Shown here one piece after another: positions 1 to 61,012 of a stretch of 64,000 nucleotides of DNA. The DNA is taken from the NCBI GenBank assembly GCA_025024175.1, contig QCXZ01000138.1:45975092-46039091 (forward strand), given 5' to 3'. A program made the position numbers and the translations under genes. The notes beneath the pieces are model-generated. The model saw nothing but the letters and a program-made list of their open reading frames with translations. It was not told the origin of the DNA and ran no database searches. Each line of letters starts with the position of its first letter. The stretch's first letter is position 1. The DNA is from Rhyzopertha dominica. Taxonomy: Eukaryota > Arthropoda > Insecta > Coleoptera > Bostrichidae.

Positions 1-653
1 GAAAGTTTAGCCGTCGAAATACTAATATCTGACTTTAGTCAATTACTATCTGACAAGCAAAATTACATTTAATCACATATTTATTATAGCACTTGGGAGA
101 ACCAAAACTGTGGAGTCCAGTATCAGCGAAACCGCGGACCCTGCTCTTCCACTTAACCCATTCACCAGAATATTAAAACAATGACAGTATATAACTGATC
201 TCAGAGAAAAAAAATTAATATTAATAAAGGGAACAAGTAAAAAAAGAAAACAAGTAGAAAAAATATAATTAGGACGGTAAGAATAAGAGTCAGATTTAAA
301 TGAAATGTTAGGAGCACTGCATTGCATTTAATTTTTTTTCCAAAAAACACGCGTGGTACAGATAAGGAAAAGTAAATCCAAGACAGTAGTTATGAACAAC
401 TTGCAACCTCTGACACAGTTGCTATCCAAACTAGGACAATGCTTCCATGACTGAAGTGAAACAATGCTAGAAGTTCGCAAAATTTAAACTTCAAATTAAA
501 ACTCAACATCCTTCGATTGATATGCGGACTACTAAGGTTCATATAAGCTTTTTGAAATTATTTCGGGATGAGTTCTTAAATCTTAATATATAATTCATGA
601 TTATACCGAAGTTTATAGCGGAACTGCTGAATTGTAAAGTTGTATCCTGTAAG
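1..653. other. AT-rich flank left of the first Penelope-like element
   Basis: No gene can be supported here. On the minus strand, 629-646 reads D-T-T-L-Q-F directly beyond the 3' end of the neighbouring Penelope-like element. This resembles the residues that follow YADD in non-LTR reverse transcriptases. It may be the far side of the retrotransposon interrupted by that insertion (2402-2900), but the match is too short to be sure. An open minus-strand stretch at 73-327 has no recognisable product. Confidence 0.3.
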
Positions 654-708
654 ATAATATTTTGTCGGATAGATCGCTGTCTCTTGAAAACACTGACAAA
701 AAGTTAAA

Positions 709-748
709 GTCTGACGTTTCGATTACACCTGTAATCTTTGTCAAAGAC
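709..748 (-). ncRNA. hammerhead-like motif in the Penelope 3' tail, copy A
   Basis: On the minus strand a GTCT arm is followed by TTGACAAA, a 7-bp hairpin (GATTACA, GG, TGTAATC), GAAACGTC and a closing AGAC arm. GTCT and AGAC pair as stem I, the hairpin is stem II, and GAA, A-C-G-U and C match the 3' core, a minimal stem III and the cleavage nucleotide of a type I hammerhead. The 5' core deviates: TTGACAA in place of CTGANGA, plus one extra base. Hammerheads are known in Penelope elements, so this is probably a decayed or variant form. Activity is doubtful. Confidence 0.5.
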
Positions 749-926
749 GAAGAACCTCAAAATTTCTCTGACACAAGTTCAAACAAAATTTTGAAAGTAA
801 ATAAACAAATCACGAAGGATGCGAGACGTTATAGAAACAACGTGCCAACTTGATTAAAAAGAACCTAACGATGAAAAAGGAACTACCTACCTACTAGATA
901 TACACGAACTACTTGATAAAAGATAA

Positions 927-2402
927 CTACAAAATAGCCTTCCAAATGTCAACTAACTCATAATTTCCACAATCCCTATTAAAATTATTAGCATTCCTAC
1001 AAATTTCTATAGCTTCTTTTATTAGACGTTTGTGATAATATTTTTCTCTATGTAACATTTTTGTTTTATCAAAATCAATCATGTTTTTAGTCAAATATGA
1101 GTGTTCCGCTACGGAAGATTTATCTATCTGTTGCAACCTAGTAGCACGTATGTGTTCTTTCAAACGCGTACCTACTTTTCTTTTAGTTTGACCTATGTAA
1201 CACTTTTCGCAAGAACAAGTAATTTTGTAAACACTTTCACTCTCTAAATGTACTTTATCTTTAGTAGAACTTAAAATTTTATCTAAATTATTATATGTAC
1301 TATCAACAACTAAAATATCGTGTTTTCTAAGCATCCTCTTTAATTTTTCCGAAAGTCCTTGTACACAAGGCAAACTCAACTTCAATTTACTTTGTCGTGG
1401 CTGAGAATTTACTTGATTTGGATGAGCAAAAACTGACCAAATATTCTTACTACTACTAGCGCTGATTTAAGATGATACATTTCTTTTTGTACAGAACTTT
1501 CGTGTGATATCCTTTGTGCTCTAACAAATAACGTCCTAATAAGACTATTCTTTTGAGAAGGAGGGTGGTGAGATGTGGCATGTAAATATCTGTCTGTGTG
1601 TGTTGGTTTTCTGTAAACCTTGTGTCCTAACCGTCCAGTGTTTGTTCTGTAAATTTGGACATCCAAGAAAGGTAAACTACCATTGCTTTCTAATTCCATA
1701 GTAAATTTTATGTCGGGATTTTGACTGTTCAAATGATTTAGAAACCTACCCAGCTCTTCTATACCGTGGGGCCAAATAACAAAAAAGTGTCATCTACGTA
1801 CCTATACCAACATTTTGGTTTAAGCTGAAAACTGTTTATCGCTACATGTTCAAAATTTTCCATAAACAAATTGGATACTGCAGGACTTAGAGGTGAACCC
1901 ATCGCACAACCTGATTTTTGTTCATAAAAATTATCGTTCCATAAGAAATAAGCAGATTTTAAACAATGTTCGGATAAGCTGGCTATCGTGTCACCTAAGG
2001 GATCGCTATTAAGCTTGGATTTGATGATATCTATCGTTTCAGGAATGGGTACTTTCGTAAATAAAGAAACCACGTCAAAACTAACCAAAATATCACCTTC
2101 TGTAATACTTAAACCTTTTATAATATCAATAAAGTCTGAAGAATTTTTGATGAAACTACTGGTATTTCCTACATAAGGTTTTAAATAGTTGGCACAAAAT
2201 TTTGCCAATCTGTAACAAGGACTGCCAATCGTATTGACTATGGGTCTTAAGGGGACATTGGTTTTGTGGACCATACAATTTAGGTATTGCAATCGGAACA
2301 GTTAAAATAAACTTCTCCTCATTCGAAAGATTTGAACTTTTGATAAGATCATTGGTAATTTTGGAAATTTTTGAGGTAGGATCTCGGGATAATTTTTGAT
2401 AA
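927..2402 (-). pseudogene. Penelope reverse transcriptase plus GIY-YIG endonuclease, frameshifted
   Basis: The coding remains run from 2402 down to 927. RT motifs are visible in order: FDVVSLFTKVP (motif A), GCAMGSPLSP (motif B) and YRYVDDTF (catalytic YVDD, motif C). Next come LPFLDVQI and a basic linker, then the GIY-YIG-type nuclease core with CYIGQTKRKVGTRLKEH near 1200. The order RT then C-terminal GIY-YIG is diagnostic of the Penelope class. At about 1764 this copy has two extra T's in a T-run compared with copy B, which breaks the frame just after YVDD. A short deletion near 1450, compared with copy B, breaks it again. It cannot make a full protein. Confidence 0.9.
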
Positions 2403-6991: not shown

Positions 6992-8860
6992 TACAGGGTT
7001 GCTACAAAGTATGGAACCAACAGGATATTTCAGGTTCTGAAATTGTGCATGGGCCGTAATTAAAATGCATTTTCTGGATTTCTTTCGGCTCAAAAGGCAC
7101 ATCATTGAAAAGGATATTTTTCTTGATTTCAAAAATGCATCACCCTTGTACAATTTATTGCTTCCGAGTTGAGAAAAGTGTGATAACAAACTTGGGTCTT
7201 GCAAAAAACTTCGGGATAATAACCATATTCGTTATCGCTAAGTAAGAACAACAACTCCAGGTGTCTCCATTTTCCTCGTGACTGGTAATAATTTTCATTC
7301 ACTTTGTTATTTGCAATCTCAGTTAAGTGAACATGATCGCATCGAAATTTTGATGATGATTGGTTATGGAGATAGAGAGCGAAGTTTTTCGGAAGTAGTT
7401 GCACTCTACAATGCAATTGCCAGATCAACAGTTATTAAAACATTCCAACGTTTTGACGAAACCGGCGGTGTTAAAAATCGTCCAAAACCAGGACGTCCAA
7501 AGGTTGCTACGAGTGGTGAATGTAGCTTGAATGTCCTTTTAGATGTGCAAGGAATCCCAAGGGTTCCGTACTTCAGCATGCTCTCACTCACCATATTAGC
7601 AGAAAATAAATTCAGAAAATTTTGAAAAGAAGTTTCATGAATACAGAATTTACTTATTATAAGAACTGAGCGAAGATGATTTCGATTGTAGGATAGAATT
7701 TTGCGAAACTGCTATGAACATAATAGATGAACAGAGAAACATTTTAAATTGGATTATGCTTTCTGATGAAGAGACTTTTTGTCTCAATGGTAATGTGAAT
7801 AGACATAATTGAAGGTATTGGTCGGACACAAATCTATATTGGATGGAATAAGTCCACACACAACACCCTTAGAAAGTGAATGTCTGGTGTGGTATTATCG
7901 GTGAGCACATTATTGGGTCTTTTTTCATCGATGGAAATTTGAATGCCATCAAGTATTTGCAGCTCTTGCGGGAAAAATTATCCCAGAACTTATTCGCCTG
8001 TTCCCTAATCGTGAAAATGCTGCGCGTCCTTCTGAACAGATATGGTTTCAGCAAGATGGTGCACGGCTCCATTTTGCAGTCAACGTTCGTGGATATTTGA
8101 ATGCGATATTTCCAGACAGATGGATTGGTAGGCGCGGAGCGATAGAATGCCCAGCACGTTCCTCTGACCTGACGCCGCGTGATTTTTTCCTGTGGGGGTA
8201 TCTGAAAAATCGTATCTGCGCTAACCGGCCACATAAGGCAGAAGATTTACAAGCACGAATCGGGGCAGAAATTCAGAACTTACCTCCAAATATGTTACAA
8301 AGAACATTAGAAAACTTTTAATCAAGGCTGCATTACTGCCAGGAAGTAAATGGNGAACATTTTGAGCATCTTCTGTAATGTAAATTTGAAAAAAATATTG
8401 CATTTTCACAAAATCATGTTTTTCTTTTTTACTTTTAGGGTACTCGATTCGCAATAAATTGATCAAACTAGACGAAAATTATTACGAGTCAAGGAAAAAT
8501 GGTAATACCTGGCGTTTTTGTCCATTTCAGCCATAAAGAAAGTTGTTTTAATTTTTTCGTTCTTTGTCAGGCTCAATTGCTGTATTTACACTCTTCTCCA
8601 CTCAGTAGCAATCAATTGTACAAGTGTGATATATTTTTGAAATCAGGAAAAAAATATCCTTTTCAGGGATTTGCCTTGTGGCCCCTCTTCCCGATTACAA
8701 AAATGCAATTTGCGTAAATAGTTCGTTCGGAAACGAGAGCTGTCACGGAGTTGAAAAATTCCAGAAAATGTATATTAATTACCCATAGGCTCATGCTCAA
8801 TTTCAGAAAAATGGGTCGAATAGAACCTGAAATATCCTGCTGGTTCCATACTTTATAAAT
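6992..8860 (+). mobile_element. Tc1/mariner-superfamily element with long inverted ends and D-41-D spacing, copy 1
   Basis: A nearly full-length DNA transposon. Both ends carry a conserved AAAGTATGGAACC...GGATATTTCAGGTTCT block in opposite orientation (about 7002-7040 and 8823-8858). The similarity continues inward: 7045-7297 can be matched in inverted orientation to about 8470-8720, so each inverted repeat is roughly 300-390 bp. The transposase lies between them on the plus strand. Target duplication was not resolved. A second, more decayed copy lies at 49530-50815. Confidence 0.85.
7278..8335 (+). pseudogene. mariner-superfamily DDE transposase, decayed, D-41-D
   Basis: The protein would cut and join transposon ends. 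The N-terminal HTH region (7320-7510) reads LSEHDRIEILMMIGYGDRER and a GGVKNRPKPGRPK linker. The catalytic core follows: LSDEETFCLNGNVNRHN (first Asp, near 7763), NVWCGIIGEHIIGSFFIDGN (7880-7945), QQDGA (second Asp at 8055-8057) and SDLTPRDFFLWGYLKNR (third Asp at 8181-8183). The last two Asp codons are separated by 41 codons, unlike the 34 of classical mariner. The C-terminus has YCQEVNG and FEHLL (8333-8370). Stops and frame changes near 7625, 7810, 7850 and 8030 show it is dead, but all three Asp are retained. Confidence 0.85.
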
Positions 8861-16337: not shown

Positions 16338-17860
16338 GGCTTTTATTATCAGTAGTATATCAACATTATATAGAATACTAATATCCTGTGGATTTAAAGC
16401 CAAAATCCCCCACAATTGCCATCATCAGAATCGGTTTAGATAAAAAATATAACTCCAGAAGAATACAATATATGTGTATCCATCCATATCCTGTTTGCCT
16501 TCAATGTTTTATTACAGCTCTTATTAAACTTCCTTTATTCATAGGTAATATCACGTTTATATTAATGCAAGCTAAACTCCGTTCCGTATTCATCGAGACA
16601 CCCTGTATATCTGTAGTCGAGATGTAACCGATCAAAACGGAATCGATACTTATCCTTTTGTTGGTCGTGCAACGGAATTGTTTAATTGTGTTAGCTTAAG
16701 CATGACCGGCCACGATGGCATCTAAACAAACTAAATTGCGGCGCCCTGCAATGTTCGTGATAATAAAATATAATACGGACGCAGTCAGCTGTGTTGACAG
16801 TTATTTGAAACCGACGTGTTTATTAGACGACCACATTTCTCGCTGTAATCAGATATCATATTTATTCCTTTTTTATCAGTACTAAGAATTTGGAAAATGA
16901 ACAGAAAACCCAGGCGGCGAAAACACCAAAGTGAGTAAGGTTGGGTGAAAATCCAAACGCAACTATAAAAGTAGTACCCAAATTTGGATTTATATACACT
17001 ACTGCTTTCACAGAAGCGATATGCAAAAAACTGCGTCTAAATGGAGATACTCAATTGAATGCAACTCTCAAGCTTTCTGTTTATTAAGTACATTTCGAGA
17101 ATCTCGAGTATATTCTACAATTTTTTTTAATGCAAACGGTAAGCTATGTTAGGACAGTCCAATAATGAAGATACCCTTGGGTTGCTCTATTTGAATGTAT
17201 AATTTATAGACCCAAGTCCTGCTTTCTTGTGAACAAGTTCAACAACACTAACAAAGAAACAAAAAAATAATAAATTCAAAGAAAAGATATGTTTATAAGA
17301 ACACAACTCATTAAAATTTCCAACACACAATCACGTAATGGGGTTCATAAAATATAGATGTCTTATCAAAGGTAAAAACAACAGATAGGTAATGATAAAG
17401 TGAAAAATAAAGAATATTGCACTTCATATTTTTAGTTTTTGGAAAACATACTTGTTTTGTTGCTTAATTTTTCATGTCAGGATCACAAAAATTAAAGGGT
17501 AATATGAGAAAATGTGTATTAGAATAACTACTAACGAATGTAATGTCAAGAATAATTTATTTTTATTATTATTATTATCAGAGATAAAGCAGCAAATATC
17601 GCATGCGCAATGCTTTTATGCCAGTTTAATTGATAAAATCGTGTAGCTCACACTTTGCCACTGGTTATCAGTGACGCAGTATTTGGTCAAAGTCAAGGAA
17701 TCTCAAAAACGGTATGGTCTACAAACACATTTCTTAACTCAAAATATTGGATAGCAAGTGTTTTACACTAAAACGATTACATCAACAAAAAAGTACCGCC
17801 AATCTATAGGTGCAATTGATACATTATCAAACACTAATTAGGATCACATTAAAGATGCTA
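16338..17860. other. AT-rich stretch without gene
   Basis: No recognisable coding sequence. A TTA microsatellite lies at 17561-17578. The block around 16640-16860 is less AT-rich but shows no motif. Confidence 0.4.
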
Positions 17861-17925
17861 CAGACTTTATTGATATTATAAAAGGTTTAAGTATTTCAGA
17901 AGGTGATATTTTTGTTAGTTTTGAC

Positions 17926-19036
17926 GTGGTTTCTTTATTTACGAAAGTACCCATTCCTAAAACGATAGATATCATCAAATCCAAGCTTAATGGCGATCCC
18001 CTAGGTGACACGATAGCCAGATTATCCGAACATTGTTTAAAATCTACTTATTTCTTATGGAACGATAATTTTTATGAACATAAATCAGGTTGTGCAATGG
18101 GTTTACCTCTAAGTCCTGTAGTAGCCAATTTGTTTATGGAAAATTTTGAACATGTAGCGATAAACAGTTTTCAGTTTAAAACAAAATGTTGGTATAGGTA
18201 CGTAGATGACACTTTTGTTATTTGGCCCCACGGTATAGAAGAGTTGGGTAGGTTTCTAAATCGTTTGAACAGTCAAAATCCCGACATAAAATTTACTATG
18301 GAATTAGAAAGCAATGGTAGTTTACCTTTCTTGGATGTCCAAATTTACAGAACAAACACTGGACAGTTAGGACACAAGGTTTACAGAAAACCAACACACA
18401 CAGACAGATATTTACATGCCACATCTCACCACCCTCCTTCTCAAAAGAATAGTCTTATTAGGACGTTATTTGTTAGAGCACAAAGGATATCAGACGAAAG
18501 TTCTGTACAAAAAGAAATATATCATCTTAAATCAGCGCTAGTGAGAAATGGTTATAGTAGTAAGAATATTAGGTCAGTTTTTAATAAAAGTGCTCATCCA
18601 AATCAAGTAAATTCTCAGCAAGGACAAAGTAAATTGAAGTTGAGTTTGCCTTGTGTACAAGGTCTTTCGGAAAAATTAAAGAGGATGCTTACAAAACACA
18701 ATGTTTTAGTTGTTGATAGTACATATAATAATTTAGATAAAATTACTTGTTCTTGCGGCAAGTGTTACATAGGTCAAACTAAAAGAAAAGTAGGCACGCG
18801 TTTGAAAGAACACATACGTGCTACTAGGTTGCAAGAGATAGATAAATCTTCCGTAGCTGAACACTCATATTTCTAAACACATGATTGATTTCGATAAAAC
18901 AAACATTTTACATAGAGAAAAATATTATCACAAACGTCTAATAAAAGAAGCTATAGAAATTTGTAGGAATACTAATCATTTTAATAGGGATTGTGGAATT
19001 TATGAGTTAGGTGACATTTCGAAGGTTATTTTGTAG
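17926..19036 (+). pseudogene. Penelope reverse transcriptase plus GIY-YIG endonuclease, copy B
   Basis: One 316-codon open frame (17926-18876) carries RT motifs A (FTKVPIPKTIDII), B (GCAMGLPLSPVVANLF) and C (WYRYVDDTF), then LPFLDVQIYRTNTG, a basic linker and the GIY-YIG core ending CYIGQTKRKVGTRLKEH. Compared with copy A, an 18-codon segment between NNLDK and ITCSC is missing; it holds the region immediately before the nuclease core. One base is lost near 18873, so the last 50 codons (ending near 19036) are in another frame. The first third of a normal Penelope protein is absent. The RT core itself is open and keeps YVDD. Confidence 0.9.
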
Positions 19037-19210
19037 TTATCTTTTATCAAGTAGTTCGTGTATATCTAGTAGGTAGGTAGTTCCTTTTTCATCGTTAGGT
19101 TCTTTTTATCAGGTTGGCACGTTTCTATGATGTCTCGCATCCTTAATGATTTGTTTATTTACTTTCATAATGTTGTTTGAACTTGTGTCAGGCAAATTTT
19201 AAGGTTCTTC

Positions 19211-19250
19211 GTCTTTGACAAAGATTACAGGTGTAATCGAAACGTCAGAC
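19211..19250 (+). ncRNA. hammerhead-like motif in the Penelope 3' tail, copy B
   Basis: Identical in layout to copy A: GTCT arm 19211-19214, variant core TTGACAAA 19215-19222, stem II 19223-19229 with 19232-19238, GAA 19239-19241, minimal A-C-G-U stem III 19242-19245, putative cleavage after C19246 and the AGAC arm 19247-19250. Stems are perfect, but the CTGANGA core is altered. Both genomic copies share the same alteration, so the variant predates their divergence or is normal for the family. Confidence 0.5.
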
Positions 19251-19543
19251 TATTAACTTTTTGTGAGTGTTTTCAAGAGACAGCGATCTATCCGACAAAA
19301 TATTATATTATGGACGCTGAAAGCATTCTCCCTCGTATGCTACAGATGTTTTAAGTTTTTTTTTATGCAGCAATATAAGACTATTAAATTGAAATAAAAA
19401 ATAAATAGAATATTAACTTTAGAAGGGTGAACGTGTTCAGCATTCAAAACTTTTTTTATCAAGATTTTGAAAACATAATAAAGTTTACACAAGAACAAAC
19501 AGCGCTTTAACAAGGTCAAGAAACAAGACATATTTAAATTAGT

Positions 19544-21350: not shown

Positions 21351-24282
21351 CATTGTATGCCGCTAATTAAGTTCTAAATCATCATATCCATCGTCAAGAA
21401 AAGGCATGTTATCTGATGATTGTCTTTTTTGATCTCTAGATATTAATTTGATATCCCAACCAAAAACACAAATACAGCGGTTCCAATATATAATTGAATT
21501 TCGCTTTGTATTGATGAATTTTCTTCTGTTTCAAAGTTCTGTGAATGTGGGACATACTGATGCGTAGTTGGAGATATTTCTTCGTTATAAGGTTTTTTTT
21601 ATCAACACCAAAACGGTAGCAGCGTCTTCGTCATAGTACGGTTTGTTATGCTCCTTTAAATTTGTCATGAATCAACTTATTAACTTGTTTTATCAGATTA
21701 TTGGGCCCCGGAAGCTTCTCATCGAATTTTTCAATAACAGAACGATAACTTTACTCACCCATAATAAAACATGAATCAAATAAATTATCTGCTCCAAAGT
21801 CAAGATTTTGTTTACGTTTACGGCAGTAAACTGCATAGAATTGTCTAGCCTGCCTGCATGATAAAAATTTTAATGTTAAGATAAATCATTACTAGTCCAA
21901 AATCTGGATAAAAATTAAATTCGCACTGAGCCAGAATAATGAAGTTTTAATTGCTGGTTTCAGTTTTTTCTTTACAGTTTGGTACAAAATCAAAGATAAA
22001 AATTTTTTCCTCTTGTAAACTTGATCAATTCCAAAACAGTGCATAACATAAACGGAGGTTACACTTGTAGTGACCCATTAATAGGGGGCTGTGCAAAAGC
22101 CTAGNGCGTTAAAATTGATAAATAAAAATCAATCGCATAGCAAACAAAAACGAAGCCACAAATCATAAATTTAGATAAAAAATCTAAAACAATTAATAAT
22201 TAAATAACCAAGAACACCTCTATTTCTTAAAGAATAATAGTCAGCAATTACTATACTCATATGAGCCACCAAAGGATAAACAATGAATGACCTAATATTT
22301 CTGTGACACAAACAAATAAAAAAGACTATTTAACACCCAAAAATAGAAATACGTCAAATTTACGCAAAACAGGAGCGTATTACTTATGTGACAAGAATGA
22401 TGAACTATGATGGATCCTAGAAAGGTCTTTATTACTGGCGTAAATATGAGAAGTGAGCAACATTAACCTGAGCAAAAACAAAGTACGTCTACCCATAATA
22501 TTTATTAACAAACAAATTATGAAAATAAAGTTAGCGGTTTTGAGGCATTAAAATACGTAATTAACGTTCAAGAAAATAAACATTATTAAGAAATTAGTTG
22601 CATTTTTTTAACACCTCTCGCTTATTCGCCTATATCATGATTAATGGCACCATCTAAAGGCGACTAAGAGTACGATTCTCATGTCCAATGATTTCAAAGT
22701 CGTCGGAATACAAAATTGCAGGGCTGAAATATTAGTGATAGACTCTATCTAATATCTAGTCATTAATACATATCAAAAAAGCTTGCAACACTTCGAAAAT
22801 CTAGCTTAACACAACTTCACTATATGCCTATTACAGTTATTGAGACTCCCATATTTGATAAGAGTACCAAAAAACACTAACTGAAGAAAGTATGACAAAA
22901 ATAAATAGAAAATAGAAAATTAAGACAAACAACAATCACACATTAATACAAAAAAGGTAATATGCCAAACCTGCGACTTTGAATAGCTCGTCACAACAAA
23001 CAAAAACCGTAACAGATGATCGACAAATGGACACGAACAAAATTACTTTACAATAAAACATACGTAAATGAAAGGTTACAGTTACAGTAATGAGCAAGTC
23101 ATCATGACGACAGTTATCAACTAGTGTGTTTACTGTTTTGTCACTTTCCTGACGGCCCTAAAATCACCCCCTCCACATAGATTGTGCTTGGCTTCCCACC
23201 AAAAACCTTCACATATGGCAAAAAAACACTGACATCTAATTTTCCACTTCCACAAACCCGAATTCTCCCAAATACCAGAATAATCACTTTGGCTTAACTA
23301 TACACGTATATAGTTTTTGAGCTCCAGGTTGCGTTATTCCAATTCCAATATTTATAAAAAAAAGTAATAAAATAAATCTATCAACGAGTCTTCGAAACCA
23401 CTACAATCCAGCGAGCACCCCAGGTATATGACCTGACAGCAGCTTGGGGGTTTTATGTTGGCAGACAATGAAATATGAATGCATTTGTGAAAACTCACTA
23501 AATGCGGAATACCTCACACTTCATGTTCGTGTTTTCATTTTTTTTCACAAAAACCCAGAAAATATCCTTGAGTTGGTTACATCAAATCCCAAACATTTCC
23601 GAAAATAAAATATCACCAATAGAAAGGCACCCTTTACACAAGCAAACCACTCGTTACATAACACGGTTGTAACATAATCACCAGTTCGAAGAATTTTCTA
23701 CGAAGAAACCTCGATCTTTTGTTCCTGACGTTCTTACGCCAGGCCTAACGACCGCACCATTATTTTAAGGATGCGCAAGACGTCGTGGAGAAGGATTACA
23801 CAATCGAGATGCATAATGCAACAATAATGCAACCAACGACTGGGAGCCTTGTGTTTCAAACTGCAGCACAGGTGACAAGCCCGTTGCGCAAGCTGAAATA
23901 CAAGGAGAATGTGCACACCTGGTCGGCTATATCTACTCGGCAATAGATAAAAGGCTTAACGTGTTCATAAAGGGAAACCTCGCGAGGCATGCGAACAGAC
24001 AGGAAAAAAGGATTGCGTCAATTCAAATTGCAGATCGATGAAACGACAGTACTAGAAAAATTGGCTATTTAGTAATTACTGTACGCTGCTTTGTAAAGAT
24101 TTACAAAATACCTATAAAGATTATAAAAAACTACTTATTAGGTNTAAANACAGAACTAAAGATGACACAATTAATATTTTATTTTTTTTAATACTGTGAT
24201 TGCCAATCGATGACAAATATAATATTGTCAGATAATATGTTATCGGAAAGATCTCGAAAATAGAAACAACGTGTTAAATTTC
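21351..24282. other. 2.9 kb AT-rich stretch, nothing recognised
   Basis: No coding motif, RNA gene or repeat partner was noticed. Three ambiguous bases occur (22105, 24144, 24149). A minus-strand open frame at 23734-23943 has no recognisable product. Confidence 0.4.
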
Positions 24283-24503
24283 TATAGCTTCTTTTATTAG
24301 ACGTTTGTAATAAAAATTTTCTCTACGTAAAATTTTTGTTTTATCAAAGTCATGTGTTTAGTCAAATATGAATGTTGAGCTACGAAAGATTTATCTGTCT
24401 GTTACAGCCTAGTAGCATATGTTCTTTCAAACGCGTACCTACTTTTCTTTTAGTTTGACTTATGTAACATTAGCCGCAAGAACAAGTAACTTTGTAAATA
24501 ATG
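24283..24503 (-). mobile_element. Penelope-like element fragment D (GIY-YIG part)
   Basis: A 220-bp minus-strand piece that closely follows copy A from the nuclease core (CYISQTKRKVGTRLKEH) to the FDKTK-like region near the C-terminus. Small deletions and a Gly to Ser change in the CYIG motif mark it as dead. It has neither the RT nor the 3' tail. Confidence 0.8.
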
Positions 24504-37535: not shown

Positions 37536-37812
37536 ACCGATTGAAATTATCAAATTCAAACTTAATAGAGAGCCGAAACGATAGCCAAATTATCCGAGTA
37601 CTGTTCAAAATCTACTTTTGTCTTTTGTTCCAACAATACATTAAATAAGGTAGGTTTCTAAATCATTAGAATAGTCAAAATTCTGATAAAAATGGAAAGA
37701 TGGAATTAGAAAGTACAATAGTAGTTTACTTTTCTTGTACATCCAAATTTACAAACAAAACAAAGTTTAGTTAGGACACAAAGTATAAAGAAAACACAGA
37801 CAGATGCGAGAG
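37536..37812 (+). mobile_element. Penelope-like element fragment E
   Basis: A heavily decayed run that follows the Penelope order. PIEIIKFKLNREP (motif A region) and LSEYCSKSTF are followed, after a deletion that removes motifs B and C, by the VGF-x-N-H...MELES...V-Y-F-S-C-T-S-K-F-T-N-K-like stretch. It sits directly upstream of copy C in the same direction, so it appears to be the truncated first unit of a tandem pair. Confidence 0.6.
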
Positions 37813-39490
37813 TGAATACTTTCAGCATCCAAAATGTAAGTAATTTTAGATAGAACAGATTATGAGACTAAAATTAGAGAATTAGTAGATGAGGAAACAT
37901 ATCAAAACTTCAAATCTTTCGAACGAGAAGAAGTCTTTTTCAACTGTTTCCGATTACAAGGTTCCTAAATTGTATGGTTTGCCCAAAATCCACTAATGTC
38001 CTGTTAAGACATATAGTCAATACGTATGGCAGTCCTTGTTACAACTATTTAAAACCTTATGTAGGAAAATCCAGTAGTTTCATAAAAAATTCTTCCTACT
38101 TTCTTGATGTTTCAAAAGTATTTCAGAAGATAATATTTTAGTTAACATTGATGTAGTTCCTTTATTTACGAAAATGCCCATATCAGAAACGACAGATATC
38201 ACCAAATCCAAACTTAATAGAGATGATAAGATAACCAGATTACCTAAACACTGTTTAAAATCAACTTTTTTCTTATGGAACGGTAATTTTCATGAACAAA
38301 AATCAGACTGTGCAGTAGGTTCACCTTTAAGTCCTGTAGTGACCAATTATTTTTATGGAAAACATTGAAGAAGTAGCGATCAACAGTTTTCAGTTTAAGC
38401 CAAAATGTTGGTATATGTATGTAGATGATACTTTTGTTATTTGGCCCCATGGTATAGAAGAGTTCGGTAGGTTTCCAAATCATTTGAACAGTCAAAATCC
38501 TGACATCAAATTTACTAAGGAATTAGAAAGCAGTGGTAGTTTACCTTTCTTGGATATCCAAATTTACAGAATGAACACTGGACAGTCAGGACACGAGGTT
38601 TAGAGAAAACCAAAACACNTAGACATATATTTACATGTTACATCTCACCACCCTCCCATTCAAAAGAATAGTCTTATAAGGACGTTATTTGTTAGAACAC
38701 AAAGGATCTCAGATCAGAGTTTTTTACAAAAAGATATTNATCACTGTAAATCAGCGCTAGTGAGAAATGGTTATAGCAATAAGAACNCTTGGTTAGTTTT
38801 TAATAAAAGTTCTCAGCCAAATCAAGTAAATTTCAGCCAGAACGAAGTAAATTAAAGTTGANTTTGCCTCATGTACAAGGCTTGTCGGAAAAACTAAAGA
38901 GAATGCTTAGAAAAGTTCTACTGAGATAAGGTGCATTTAGAGGGTGAGGTGTTTACAAAATCAATTGTTTTTGGGGCAAGTGTTACATAGGTCAAAACGA
39001 ATAGAACAGTAGGTACACGTTCGAAGGAATACATACGTGCTACTAGGCTATAATATTCCGTAGTTGAACAGTCATATTATACACATGGGATATTCAGAAA
39101 GCATATTTTAATTGTTGATGGCACACATAATAACCTAGAACAAATTTTGGGTAGGTACCACTACAGATAAAGTAGTACATTTAGAACGCAAAGGTGTGAA
39201 ATTACTTGATCATGCGATCAGATCAGAAGAAAAGTATAGACCCGTACTAAGAACAGATACGTGTTCGAAGGTTGAGAAAAAAAGATAAATCTTCTGTAGC
39301 TGAATATTCAAATCTAACAAAACACACCATTGATTCTGACAGAACAAAACTTTACATAAAAACATGTTATTACAAACATTTAATAAACGAACCTCTGGTG
39401 AGAATTTTTAGAAACACTAATAACTTTGATGGGGATTATGGAAACTATGAACTAGATTTTAATCAAGTATTTCGTGCATATCAAGTTTAA
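37813..39490 (+). mobile_element. Penelope-like retroelement, copy C, decayed, with a duplicated nuclease region
   Basis: Starts with a segment (37805-37838) that resembles the inverted sequence downstream of copy B. Then come DRTDYETKIRELVDEETYQNF (37850-37910) and the RT: AVGSPLSPVVTNYF (motif B, about 38310) and WYMYVDDTFVIW (motif C, 38407-38442). Next is LPFLDIQIYRMNTG. The GIY-YIG core with CYIGQ occurs near 38975. About 150 bp later, a second partial run (39090-39490) repeats the VDGTHNNLEQIL and KDKSSVAEYSNLTKH parts. Four ambiguous bases fall between 38619 and 38862. Copies A and B differ from it more than from each other, so this is an older insertion. Confidence 0.8.
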
Positions 39491-49529: not shown

Positions 49530-50815
49530 AAAGCAAATAGAAGATCGCGAAACCGGCGGTGTTAAAAATCGTCAAAAATCAGTACGTCCAAAGGTTGCTA
49601 CGATTGAGGAAAGTAGCTTGAATGTCCTTTTGGATGTGCAAGAGAATCCCGAGGGTTCCGTACAACAGCGTGCTCTCACTCACTATATTAGCAGAAGATC
49701 TGTTCAAAAACCTTCATCCATACAAAATTCACTTATTACAAGAATTAAGAGAGATGATTTCGATCGTAGGATAGAATTTTGCGAAACTACGATGAACATC
49801 GAAGAAGATAGAAACATCTTCAACTGAATTAGGTTTTCTGATGAAGCGACTTTTTGCCTCAATGATAATATAAATAGACATAATTGCAAATATTGGTCGG
49901 ACACAAATCCACACACAACACCCTCAGAAAATGAATGTCTGGTGTGGTATTATCAGTGAGCACATTACTGGGCCTTTTTTCATCGATGGAAATTTGAATG
50001 CGATCAAGTATTTTACAGCTCTTGCGGGAAAAAACTATACCGGAACTTATTCGCCTGTTCCCTAATAGTGAAAATATTGCGCATCCTTTTGAACGGTTAT
50101 GGTTTCAGGAAGATGGTGCACCGCCCCATTTTACAGTCAACGTTCGTTGACATTTGAATGCGATATTTCCAGACAGATGAATTGATAGGCGCGGAGCGAT
50201 AGAATACCCAGCATGTTCCCCTGATCTAACGCCGCTTTATTTTTTCCTGCGGGGGTATCTGAAAAATCGTATTTTTGCCACATAATGCAGGACGATTCAG
50301 GACAGAAATTCGGAACTTACCTCCAAATATGCTATAAAGAACATTAGAAGACTTTTACTCAAGGCTGCATTGCCAGGAAGTAAATGGGGAACATTTTAAG
50401 CATCGTTTATAATGTAAATCTGAAAAAAATACAGCATTTTTCACGGAATCCTGTCTTTCTTTTTTACTTTTTGGACACCCAATTCGCAATAAATTGATCA
50501 AACTAGACGAAATTATCACCATTTAAGGAAAAATGGTAACACCTGGCTTTTTTGTCCATTTTAGCCATAAACAAAATTGTTTTCAATCTTTTAGTTCTTT
50601 GTCACGCTCAATTATTATATTTATACTTTTTTCAACTCAGAAGCAACAAATTGTACAAGTGTGATACATTTTTAAAGACAGGAAAAAATATTGTTTCCAA
50701 TGGAGTGCCTTTTGACCCCCCTTTCCTATTTAAAGAAATGCAACTTGCCCCCATATCTCGAAAACGAGAGCTGACAGCTACTTATCCAGTTTTGTAAAAT
50801 TTAATCGTGTTTCGC
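49530..50815 (+). mobile_element. D-41-D type mariner-superfamily element, copy 2, left end lost
   Basis: Same family as 6992-8860. Matching starts at CGAAACCGGCGGTG (about 49548) and continues through the coding part and the inner right inverted repeat (50505-50790). The left inverted repeat and the HTH start are absent, and the outermost right end (GTTCCATACTTT) is not seen. Confidence 0.8.
49545..50400 (+). pseudogene. transposase of the D-41-D family, copy 2
   Basis: GGVKNRQKSVRPKVATIEES and DDFDRRIEFCETTMNIEEDR are intact to 49827, where a stop intervenes. Then [20 protein letters not shown] (first Asp, about 49838), [20 protein letters not shown] (49930-49985) and FQEDGAPPHFTVNV (second Asp, near 50114). 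Next, with stops, RRGAIEYPACSPDLTPLYFF follows. The third catalytic Asp is Tyr (near 50238). The end NGEHF follows about 50385. It is more damaged than copy 1. Confidence 0.8.
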
Positions 50816-55290: not shown

Positions 55291-55810
55291 GGTGTATGGT
55301 ATCCAGTATATGCATATTTTGTTAAAATTCACAGAATAAACTATTTTCCCATATCTATCACTCGTACAGGTGTCTTACGTAGTTCCTAGATTACTGTCAT
55401 GTATAGAATTGTCAATAAAGATACAGATAATAATTTAACTATGTAAAATACTTCATTTATCGCCGCAACGTTCTTTGTTTTATTCCACTAACCTATGATT
55501 ACTGTTATTATAATAAAAATGTGTATAATTTTTTTCGTGTAAACGGTTGACCTGTTGGACAATCTATTTTATTTTTATTAAAAGAATGTGAAAGATGCAA
55601 TAAACAAGTTTAGTTAACAGGAAAAGTTACACCATGGAAAAATAATCATCTGACTCTACGACTAATTCCGCCTTATTGAGGCTCATCAGACAGGGGTACT
55701 GAGTAAATTGACCAAAGCAAACCGTCGCCTTTAACCGCTGCATGCGGATTGATGTATAAAAAAGCTCTTTTATNCACAATATGGAAGAAAACCGTTGATA
55801 AACAATAACG
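55291..55810. other. spacer before the ribozyme array
   Basis: No gene. On the minus strand 55666-55689 reads CTGATGAGCCTCAATAAGGC then GGAA, a partial hammerhead-like core on the opposite strand to the array (see findings). One ambiguous base lies at 55774. Confidence 0.4.
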
Positions 55811-55966
55811 TATGCAGTTGCATGCCAATTTGTCAGGCTACAGGTCACTTCCTTTAGGAAGTAGTACCCGTTAAGGCAGCTAGGTGGCTTTGTCATCATG
55901 TCAGTGTAATGCTGACAGATGGCATTACCATCCTAAATTCTTACTTACGTCATACCATTGCTTTGG

Positions 55967-55974
55967 TATATAAG
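55967..55974 (+). promoter_or_regulatory. TATA box candidate of the ribozyme repeat (unit 1)
   Basis: TATATAAG lies 26 bp upstream of the first base of ribozyme 1, and identically at 56319-56326 and 56671-56678. A start 25-30 bp downstream would fall at the 5' edge of the ribozyme. This is inference from spacing; the diverged unit at 59062-59322 lacks the box. Confidence 0.4.
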
Positions 55975-55992
55975 CAAAACCAGTTCTATGCC

Positions 55993-56082
55993 GTGCTGTC
56001 TACACTAGACCAAAACTGCACTGATGAGCTGTAATGACAGCGAAATAGATCTATCTGCAGTTGGTTGAGGTGCAGACAGCAC
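55993..56082 (+). ncRNA. hammerhead ribozyme, unit 1
   Basis: A type I hammerhead. Distal stem I: GTGCTGTCTACAC (55993-56005) with GTGCAGACAGCAC (56070-56082), one mismatch. Proximal stem I: CTGCA (56016-56020) with TGCAG (56056-56060). Core: CTGATGA (56021-56027). Stem II: GCTGT (56028-56032) with ACAGC (56037-56041), loop AATG. Core: GAA (56042-56044). Stem III: ATAG (56045-56048) with CTAT (56051-56054), 2-nt loop. Cleavage is expected after C56055. All invariant core bases are present. The very short stem III is self-complementary, as in hammerheads thought to work as dimers. Internal loops in stem I (56006-56015, 56061-56069) could give the usual tertiary contact with loop II. Confidence 0.93.
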
Positions 56083-56344
56083 AGCATAGACATGCATTTT
56101 AATGTATGTCGGTTCTTGCCCGTTAGCAAAAAGTGCCGTGGGGACCTGCTGTCAAATTGAAGTATGCAGTTACATGCCAATTTGTCAGGCTACAGGTCAC
56201 TTCCTTTAGGAAGTAGTACCCGTTAAGGCAGCTAGGTGGCTTTGTTATCATGTCAATGTAATGCTGACAGATGGCATTGCCATCCTAAATTCTTACTTAC
56301 ATCATACCATTGCTTTGGTATATAAGCAAAACCAGTTCTATGCC

Positions 56345-56434
56345 GTGCTGTCTACACTAGACCTAAACTGCACTGATGAGCTGTAATGACAGCGAAATAG
56401 ATCTATCTGCAGTTGGTTGAGGTGCAGACAGCAC
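56345..56434 (+). ncRNA. hammerhead ribozyme, unit 2
   Basis: Same fold as unit 1, shifted by 352. CTGATGA is at 56373-56379, GAA at 56394-56396, and cleavage is expected after C56407. One base in the stem I internal loop differs from unit 1 (near 56364). Confidence 0.93.
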
Positions 56435-56696
56435 AGCATAGACATGCATTTTAATGTATGTCGGTTCTTGCCCGTTAGCAAAAAGTGCCGTGGGGACCTG
56501 CTGTCAAATTGAAGTATGCAGTTACATGCCAATTTGTTAGGCTACAGGTCACTTCCTTTAGGAAGTAGTACCCGTTAAGGCAGCTAGGTGGCTTTGTTAT
56601 CATGTCAATGTAATTCTGACAGATGGCAATGCCATCCTAAATTCTTACTTACATCATACCATTGCTTTGGTATATAAGCAAAACCAGTTCTATGCC

Positions 56697-56786
56697 GTGC
56701 TGTCTACACTAGACCTAAACTGCACTGATGAGCTGTAATGACAGCGAAATAGATCTATCTGCAGTTGATTGAGGTGTAGACAGCAC
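56697..56786 (+). ncRNA. hammerhead ribozyme, unit 3
   Basis: Same fold. CTGATGA is at 56725-56731 and cleavage is expected after C56759. The 3' distal arm reads GTGTAGACAGCAC (56774-56786), a C to T change that turns the single mismatch of units 1 and 2 into a perfect 13-bp stem. Confidence 0.93.
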
Positions 56787-56813
56787 AGCATAGACATGCA
56801 TTTTAACGTATTT

Positions 56814-59061: not shown

Positions 59062-59322
59062 GGAGACCTGCAGATGCTTGCCAACTAGGCAGAATACAGG
59101 TTATTTCATTAAGCAAGTAGTTCCAGTTCAGGCAGGCAGATCGCTTTGCTATCATGTCAGTTTATTGCTAATAGATGGCATTGCCATCTATTTTTCTACT
59201 CACATCATACCATAACCAGTTGTCTGCACTAAACCTAAACTACACTGACGAGCTGTAATAAAAGCGAAACAGACCTGTCTGTAGTAGATTGTGCAGACAG
59301 CATAACATAGACATACATGTTA
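59062..59322 (+). repeat. diverged single unit of the ribozyme repeat
   Basis: It aligns with the array unit in order: GGxGACCTG, CAGAATACAGGTxA, CAGGCAG and GGCATTGCCATC, ACATCATACCAT, then the ribozyme and CATAGACATxCATxTTAA. It lacks the TATATAAG segment (about 20 bp shorter there). It lies 2.2 kb downstream of the array in the same orientation. Divergence is far greater than between array units, so it is an older, separate copy. Confidence 0.88.
59221..59299 (+). ncRNA. hammerhead ribozyme, diverged unit
   Basis: Distal stem I: TGTCTGCAC (59221-59229) with GTGCAGACA (59291-59299). Proximal stem I: CTACA (59240-59244) with TGTAG (59280-59284). Core: CTGACGA (59245-59251), within CTGANGA. 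Stem II is shortened: GCT (59252-59254) with AGC (59263-59265). GAA 59266-59268. Stem III: ACAG (59269-59272) with CTGT (59275-59278). Cleavage is expected after C59279. Compared with the array, both proximal stem I and stem III changed on both strands so that pairing is kept. Confidence 0.88.
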
Positions 59323-61012
59323 AATGTTTTACATTTGTATGGTTATCATACGACTATTGATGCTCTATTTTACAAACAAGTAGTCACAGTTTAACAATTA
59401 TACCCTGAATGGTGATAAAATTATGAATTTTTGAAGACATGTACCCGTAAAGGCGATATTAGCTTGACGTCAGCTTGTTCCTAAGTGGCAGCCATCTTGT
59501 TTAAATCGTTGGATGGCGGTTTGGCGTTTCGCAAGGTAGCTGACAGCTGTTGACGTGTTGACGAAGAACTACTCTGTAATCTAATCTAATAATCTTGCGA
59601 AAATGGTAATTTATGGCGTTATTGGTCGTTCGGTAATATATTTGTACGGCTTGGCGTCTATGATTCAAAATTAGTGCGAAAAAAGACCTTTCCACGAGAA
59701 GATGGACAACACCAGTTCATGCACCATTCGCTAGATGGCGCTCTTACCTAGGGACTTCATACGTAATGAGGCGGAGTAACTAGTAAAAAAATCAAATATT
59801 GCATCAAACATCGTGACGTCCGCTGGTTGCAATTTTATTATGGTATAAATCTTTAAGAAAACGACGTCTTTTCGGCGGAAGTGACTTAAGCGCATCATTC
59901 TGGTATCGTCGGATGTATTTACTTTCATTTTAAGTAAGCATATACAAATGTATCCTATAGGAGAAAAGTACATGTTGATCATCCTTAGGGCAATACCTAT
60001 ACCAATTCGTCCGATCTGTTGAGTTATTATCAAGTTATGTGCGTGGCAAGATAGATATTAGACTGACAAAAGCACCTTTTCTTCGCAAATGAATAAAAAA
60101 AAACGCCCTTAAAAAAACCTGTTGAAGGTAGCAAGCATGCCATAAATCAAATACCACCGAAAAAATCCAAAGAAACACGAACACGAACACTGAAGAGCAT
60201 TCTCCGAATAAAAGACGATTATTTCCGTTTACACTTTTTACGAATTGAAAGAATTGGTAACCAAATTGTTTACAAACACATTTTTATTCGTTCACAAACA
60301 CATACGCTACAAAAACCGCAAACGAGGCATTTTCTTCAACAGGATTCGCTACCCTCCGGGAGCAACGAACTGGTCCCTGCAAGTTCAATTACTTTCGATC
60401 CATTGATGAAGATTTCAAGCCAGCCCCCGTGGGTGTACCGACTGTTACATGCAACATGCCTTATCGCTTCGGGTTTCTAGTTTGTACACACGCACGGATC
60501 TATTGTGTGTGTGTTTATCTGGAACGACGTCCGACTCTCAAATGACATTTTAACTGCTTCGATTAATCTAAATTTACAATTAAACGAGTATTAGCACTCT
60601 GCCCCGACAGCCAAGAGCGAAAAGAAAGTTAATTGCCCTGCATTAGTGCGATTCTGACTAATACAGCAGTTCCCTGCGACAGCAGTGGCGTGCTCTAGGA
60701 TCATTATCGAAAATAACAGGATATCACGCTTCGAAAGAACAAGTTAATATCAATCTGAGAGGTTCATCCTTTCACTGATGAGGTTTTTTAAGTCGTCATT
60801 AATCTAACTTGGGCAGGAAAGTCTCTCTAGATGAATCTATTGAAAAGCAACAGTGGTTCAGTTATATATGGATTCATCCTCGATATGAAAGACAATAAAC
60901 AATAAAATTGCACAAATCTTTTCTTTTGCTTTTATAAATCGGCTCAAAAAACTTATAGAACCTCGTGTATTCAATGTCAAAGATCACAAAATTCCTTTGC
61001 TCTAAATGACAT
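59323..61012. other. 1.7 kb stretch, nothing recognised
   Basis: No gene. Open frames at 59501-59695 and 59731-60033 on the minus strand have no motif. The 60340-60700 part is less AT-rich but unreadable. Confidence 0.4.

Follow-up and report, generated by a model that had tools for sequence, protein, structure and literature searches.

The window analysed here is a 64-kb stretch of DNA from the beetle Rhyzopertha dominica, within which lies a short tandem array whose every unit carries the elements of a hammerhead ribozyme. The question it raises is whether such an array is satellite DNA or belongs to a mobile element and, if the latter, what kind of enzyme inserts it. Hammerheads in animal genomic repeats are familiar from the newt satellite and the schistosome repeats (PMC7229834; W-elements, PMC8490949), and every unit of the tandem repeat pDo500 of Dolichopoda cave crickets, also insects, includes one (PMC2837043). 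In the parts of the sources available, animal non-LTR retrozymes are defined, with insects among their hosts and Penelope-like elements (PLEs) proposed as candidate mobilisers (PMC7229834); retrozyme repeats are said to show no motif that reveals an autonomous partner (PMC7761336), and a 2024 review leaves LINEs or PLEs as the mobilisers (PMC11722881).

The array and its unit

Tandem Repeats Finder places the array at 55810-56811 (period 352, 2.8 copies, 98% matches), thus bearing out the three units spaced by 352 bp that a sequence-only reading had set at 55811-56813. The units lie head to tail on the plus strand. Unit numbering (u1-u352) begins at 55810 and, with unit 2 (56162-56513) as the reference for mapping, u1 falls at 55810, 56162, and 56514. 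The unit is 352 bp long with a G+C content of 43.2%. No stop-to-stop frame of at least 90 aa overlaps the array on its plus strand, the sole overlapping frame of that length (55627-55932) being on the opposite strand, and an RT or GIY-YIG frame is absent from the array. The sequence TATATAA at u158-164 (55967-55973, also 56319-56325 and 56671-56677, plus strand) is a candidate TATA box, which may have a promoter role.

The array has no inverted arm, and its one candidate target duplication is the 8-bp TAACGTAT, found on the plus strand at 55806-55813 on the left and 56804-56811 on the right; it is a weak candidate, of a length (8 bp or more) that about 1.4% of control flank pairs reach. Position u264 is C in units 1 and 2 and T in unit 3. 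A diverged one-arm copy lies nearby on the plus strand (59069-59323; 72% over u4-u293 by mapping and alignment), ending at the position termed site A below; in this copy both strands of stem I (ACTACA/TGTAGT) and of stem III (ACAG/CTGT) have changed in step, and stem II has one mismatch.

Elsewhere in the window, two copies that are 83% alike (7457-8713 and 49548-50748), with a transposase-like frame at 7905-8321, read like a mariner-type transposon. The only COX1-like match reported in the assembly (G000:C136:23920337-23920510) is a short piece in a large contig, contains one TGA, and is probably a nuclear mitochondrial insert.

The hammerhead motif

Each unit contains CTGATGA (u212-218), stem II (GCTGT/ACAGC, u219-232), GAAA, the stem III palindrome ATAGATCTAT (u236-245), and C at u246; the proximal part of stem I is ACTGCA/TGCAGT in every unit and is followed by a long distal helix. 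All the elements named in the sequence-only reading were located, including the C at 56055, 56407, and 56759, and its claim of a complete type I hammerhead motif in each unit is confirmed, although two details of its geometry had to be revised. The distal part of stem I is indeed a long helix, but not one of 13 bp, as in the fold of unit 1 it consists of 9-bp and 7-bp stretches round a 1x1 mismatch. The stem III palindrome is present, but its closure over a 2-nt AT loop is impossible; within a monomer the stem could have at most 3 bp, with a GATC loop, whereas between two RNAs the pairing could extend over the full 10 nt. According to the text available, animal type I hammerheads typically have a weak stem III (PMC7761336). 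In three further copies (L023:2875-2993, L034:3672-3790, and L034:3815-3934) the centre of stem III is changed from AT to TA with the 10-nt palindrome kept, a swap which is relevant only if two RNAs pair over stem III.

The hammerheads of units 1, 2, and 3 span 55985-56090 (core 56021-56055), 56337-56442 (core 56373-56407), and 56689-56794 (core 56725-56759) on the plus strand, with predicted cuts at 56055/56056, 56407/56408, and 56759/56760; all three are located by Rfam E-value and the first also by folding. At gathering scores, Rfam gave no match in the 64-kb window. When the whole window was searched by E-value, Hammerhead_HH9 (RF02275) matched the three units with 31.5, 28.5, and 25.1 bits (E 0.00057, 0.0052, and 0.067) and the region 59240-59286 with 23 bits (E 0.31), the only other match being to a snoRNA (E 0.7). 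The covariance model proposed as a check therefore found all three units, but with scores under the threshold, the HH9 gathering score being 52 bits and every HH9 match in the window falling below it. A smaller Rfam search also returned mir-214 on the same stems (17-19 bits, E 0.19-0.63), which is taken as a chance resemblance of a long hairpin. The fold of 55985-56090 has an energy of -50.4 kcal/mol (z -7.1 against shuffles), and the proposed check by folding succeeded for stems I and II, which occur in both the minimum-energy and the centroid structures, but not for stem III, which occurs in neither.

In an alignment of 50 hammerhead regions, the 40 named pairs are standard in 94.9% of cells, as against 21-43% with the partner slid. 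One stem pair alternates between A-U (26), G-C (14), and G-U (4) and is unpaired in six. Four pairs have changed on both sides, a number reached by 115 of 500 shuffles, so there is no excess; 14 of the 17 double-change cells come from a single pair switching from A-U to G-C. As the loci were picked by exact core match, the core carries no independent conservation signal. Taken together, the predicted structure supports the assignment as a hammerhead. Cleavage at adjacent units would release a 352-nt monomer RNA (56056-56407, with a second at 56408-56759, plus strand). The first is predicted to be strongly self-paired (-131.3 kcal/mol, z -6.9), stem I being formed by its 5′ end and a strand close to the 3′ end.

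Copy number and dispersal

The 35-nt core, allowing up to three mismatches, occurs 2,581 and 2,513 times on the two strands of the 479-Mb genome, a total of about 5,094, and the reversed pattern used as a control has 0 occurrences; no match to the core was found in viral contigs. Copies were mapped at 68 loci round exact core matches, the first listed on contigs C1 and C3 of the approximately 5,094, and in the window. The resulting 81 copies are made up of unit sequence; 45 have two arms placed head to head and 36 have one arm. At least two hammerheads in tandem and in one orientation are found in nine of the 81, the window copy with its three among them. The sequence-only reading had called the family a satellite or a retrozyme-like element, and it is the second term that is supported; the first is not, as each copy is a single insertion, the copies are scattered through the genome, and many are flanked by target duplications. 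The repeat is thus a tiny, non-coding mobile element present in thousands of dispersed copies. Satellite DNA was rejected on the same grounds, dispersal and target duplications, the long local arrays typical of it not being found.

Arm termini and target duplications

The outward ends of the arms (n = 126) fall largely into two clusters, 59 at u290-298 (mode 293-294; site A) and 47 at u133-149 (mode 138; site B), with 20 elsewhere. The clustering points to two RT start sites on the plus strand, A at u293 (56102, also 56454 and 56806), which is 47 nt 3′ of the predicted cut, and B at u138 (55947, also 56299 and 56651), spaced by 155 (or 197) nt. In the predicted fold, A is at the 3′ edge of the loop of a 9-bp hairpin and B is within a single-stranded stretch between hairpins. 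When ends are classed as A (u278-310) or B (u128-156), the 45 two-arm copies comprise 40 A+B, two A+A, and one B+B, and two with an unclassified end; a pairing of A with B in 40 of 43 classifiable copies has a binomial P of 1.5e-9 at p = 0.5. The inner ends of the arms are scattered and often overlap by 2-4 nt at the junction, overlaps which can be partly due to chance. The shortest arm has 39 nt and the longest 895 nt, or about 2.5 units.

An exact flank match of at least 9 bp (range 9-15 bp, mostly 13-14 bp) was found for 29 of 80 copies, one copy (L049) having too little flank to be counted; about 0.5% of 1,579 mismatched flank pairs reach this length. The duplications belong to 25 of the 45 two-arm copies, all of them A+B, and to four of 35 one-arm copies, and are absent at this length from the other 20 two-arm copies. 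Directly outside the duplication GTT is found at 22 of 58 edges, against a background of 2%.

The template

The arms and units of an insertion agree at the common variants, as would fit one RNA per insertion; the window array, with its difference at u264, is an exception. With that array left out, none of 53 within-insertion comparisons disagree at the three commonest variable sites (24 expected), and at the seven commonest 3/49 comparisons in the same orientation (17.6 expected) and 1/42 between opposite arms (16.0 expected) disagree; comparisons inside one insertion are not independent of each other. The contrast is weaker over all 46 variable sites (same orientation, 32/546 against 77.5 expected; opposite arms, 41/543 against 70.0), a difference tentatively ascribed to hot spots that mutated later. 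The shared variants might also have arisen by gene conversion between the arms of an insertion once it was in place.

Of the 42 B arms, 12 continue past the cleavage site and none ends within 5 nt of it, so the pile-up expected of linear monomers is not seen in the B arms; the A arms are biased by selection. In addition, 25 of the 45 two-arm copies exceed 352 nt in total. Since B arms cross the site, none stop near the cut and many copies are longer than the unit, the template appears to have been continuous across the cleavage site, and so would have been a circle or a homogeneous multimer.

Penelope-like elements of the same genome

A profile search for GIY-YIG (PF01541) gave at least 144 matches (150 of 2,080 candidates scored), many of which are close inverted pairs. 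One PLE, L069, was picked for the length of its 826-aa frame, which has no Pfam match at E 0.001. In the 120 of its 267 relatives that were listed, PF00078, PF28514, and PF26215 are the usual Pfam domains, PF01541 occurs in a few, and the nearest named relatives are from insects. The genome therefore holds both the retrozyme and PLEs, as also seen from RT and GIY-YIG fragments (80-96% DNA identity) that belong to a second PLE family and lie in the window at 650-2345 (-), 17847-19310 (+), 24276-24498 (-), and 37649-39047 (+). Other PLE fragments are found close to retrozyme copies at L006, L010, L012, and L029. A comparison of the retrozyme with the 826-aa PLE gave no shared sequence other than exact matches of at most 12 nt and a single imperfect match of 15 nt.

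A sample of 19 head-to-head PLE copies was compared: L069, eight whole pairs (L070-L077), and 10 pairs represented by their flanks (L078-L097), the 18 pairs being a subset of the close minus/plus neighbours among the GIY-YIG matches. In all 19, the end of one arm lies -6 to +7 nt from a position termed site 1 and that of the other 32 to 46 nt further on, at site 2; the two ends of a single copy are 31-50 nt apart. Target duplications of 12-16 bp were found in 18 of the 19, L070 having only 6 bp. GTT is found outside the PLE duplication at 8/36 edges (P 3.8e-7), 5/16 in the first set and 3/20 in the second. The second set is the fairer test, as the motif was known from the retrozyme and the first set beforehand; the enrichment in this second set is weak (P 0.007, or 0.1 allowing for register slip). 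The retrozyme and the PLEs of the same genome thus share the terminus rule and the duplication length and, in part, the target motif.

Exactly one arm of each of the 19 head-to-head PLE copies (L069-L097) bears an extra “tail” of about 40 nt. Its restriction to one arm suggests that the tail marks a second RT start, at which synthesis from the other target strand began. Two PLE groups have a GACAAAGA-stem-CGAAACGTC motif near their 3′ end (window 19217-19246 (+) and 713-742 (-); L069), which looks like a degenerate PLE hammerhead whose CUGANGA core has been lost. Compact hammerhead-like motifs, CTGACGA...GAAA and CTGAAGA...GAAA, lie by PLE fragments in L012 (1576-1602) and L006 (1794-1824); they resemble the minimal type I hammerheads reported for PLEs, and neither was reported by Rfam at E 0.5.

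Discussion

The kind of element to which this family belongs, the animal non-LTR retrozyme, has already been described, insects included (PMC7229834). In keeping with the metazoan retrozymes in the available text of that paper (Cervera and de la Pena 2020), it has a type I hammerhead and coexisting PLEs, its non-coding unit of 352 bp and 43.2% G+C fits their range of 150-450 bp and low G+C, and its approximately 5,094 copies compare with about 5000 for the mussel retrozyme. Tandem copies, from dimer to multimer, are found in the window (2.8 units) and in 9/81 mapped copies and not in the rest. This is where the family departs from those retrozymes, which are presented there as head-to-tail repeats with an unknown mobiliser, whereas 45/81 copies here are head to head, with two clustered RT starts. 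A plant LTR retrozyme was rejected, as the hammerhead is type I (open stem I) and not type III and there is no LTR-type organisation. The ~500-bp repeats of pDo500 are regarded as satellite DNA, and an insertion footprint is not described in the part of that report available (PMC2837043); for the W-elements a target duplication is suggested for one, but the available text does not describe a two-site, two-strand footprint (PMC8490949). Among the matches listed in open-licence full texts, no earlier report of a retrozyme insertion footprint was recognised.

The closest parallels are with PLEs. In the excerpted accounts, the purified protein of the lizard PLE PAc (Anolis) cuts and extends both strands from two internal RNA starts which match the ends of genomic copies; in vitro and in bulk there is no difference between strands in the start site used, and the hammerhead is dispensable (PMC11167929). 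The PLEs of the rotifer Adineta, from the text available, have inverted pseudo-LTRs, 8-10 bp duplications in some copies and none in others, an optional tail on one inverted arm, and head-to-head as the commonest arrangement, for which self-priming was suggested (PMC3846280). The retrozyme shares with these elements two internal RT starts, extension of both strands, head-to-head copies, and short duplications, that is, a PLE-type insertion footprint with one start per arm. The TATA box in the pseudo-LTR region of the Adineta PLEs and the hammerhead in that of Anolis also have parallels in its unit, as far as those texts go (PMC3846280; PMC11167929). In contrast to the bulk result for the lizard PLE in the text available (PMC11167929), the genomic pairing here is of one of each start per single insertion. 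The retrozyme is nonetheless not itself a PLE, which is ruled out by the lack of a telomerase-like RT and GIY-YIG frame in the array; it also differs in its full hammerhead stems I and II and in starts 155/197 nt apart instead of about 40 as in the PLE measured in this genome.

We consider it probable that this is a short, non-autonomous animal non-LTR retrozyme, and that it is inserted when a PLE-type enzyme reverse transcribes a circular or homogeneous multimeric RNA from both target strands. Loci with at least two tandem units, such as the window array, would be transcribed, and the hammerheads would cut the transcript into 352-nt monomers to be closed into circles. A PLE-type RT/GIY-YIG endonuclease would then cut the two target strands about 13 bp apart, favouring sites with GTT outside, and each target strand would prime within the RNA, one at A and one at B. 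Synthesis would often pass the cleavage site, sometimes for more than one round of the unit, before the two cDNAs are linked to each other in head-to-head orientation; the target duplication would come from filling in the stagger. Several results weigh against this reading. No sequence is shared with L069 beyond the short matches of 12 and 15 nt, the start spacing is 31-50 nt in the PLEs and 155/197 nt in the retrozyme, and GTT is weak in the second PLE set. One-arm copies account for 36/81 and have duplications in only 4/35, and 20/45 two-arm copies lack one of 9 bp or more. The window array itself has no inverted arm, an 8-bp candidate duplication, and units differing at u264. As for the ribozyme, the four double-change pairs are not in excess of the shuffles, the loci were picked by their core, and the Rfam scores are sub-threshold.

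The nearest alternative keeps the same retrozyme and a PLE-type enzyme but takes the template to be an uncut multimeric transcript of a homogeneous tandem locus and holds that insertion does not need the hammerhead. The arms that traverse the cleavage site are what it would predict, a homogeneous multimeric transcript accounts for the shared variants as well as a circle does, and the available text on the lizard PLE describes insertion as persisting in hammerhead mutants, with unprocessed RNA apparently the main substrate (PMC11167929). It is chiefly for this dispensability of the hammerhead in vitro that the alternative is kept, as possible though not probable. Against it, only 9/81 copies have tandem hammerheads and yet arms and units agree at common variants; this is not a strong argument, as a few homogeneous source loci would suffice.

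The other alternatives depart further from the observations, and satellite DNA, DNA or foldback transposons, self-priming, and LINE twin priming were rejected on termini, dispersal, duplications, and arm structure. Twin priming in LINE-1 produces an inverted 5′ piece and target duplications, and an ordinary non-LTR retrotransposon could in this way have made inverted arms and duplications in the retrozyme; but the second start is clustered at u138 and not scattered, A is paired with B in 40/43 with the same rule in the PLEs of the same genome, and inspection by eye found no poly(A) tract at the copy edges, leaving this explanation improbable. Hairpin-primed synthesis on an antisense template would give head-to-head copies and short overlaps at the inner junction, but predicts neither a second clustered outer terminus 155 nt away nor one of each per copy, and is if anything more doubtful still. 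That the family is an ordinary satellite array holding a chance or relic hammerhead is suggested by the window copy, a tandem array with no inverted arm, and is barely credible given about 5,094 dispersed copies, target duplications, and clustered termini; it is refuted for the family and could apply only to what happens to individual arrays later on. A DNA transposon or foldback element, to which the many inverted repeats with target duplications might point, is just as hard to credit when inner ends are scattered, arms are anywhere between 39 and 895 nt long and reach about 2.5 units, and the two termini are different positions of the unit.

Returning to two-strand reverse transcription by a PLE-type enzyme, we lean slightly towards the wider view that animal retrozymes are parasites of PLEs, in which one circle is read by two RTs of a single PLE complex, each strand from its own site. 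If this is true, each two-arm insertion would be a head-to-head record of a single circle, and the rule of one start per strand (40/43 in the retrozyme, 19/19 in the PLEs) would be general to PLE integration and would explain the one-arm tail. The insertion record of this family of about 5,000 copies reduces the question of what mobilises animal retrozymes to two start nucleotides and one class of enzyme, and the same record informs how the PLEs themselves integrate.
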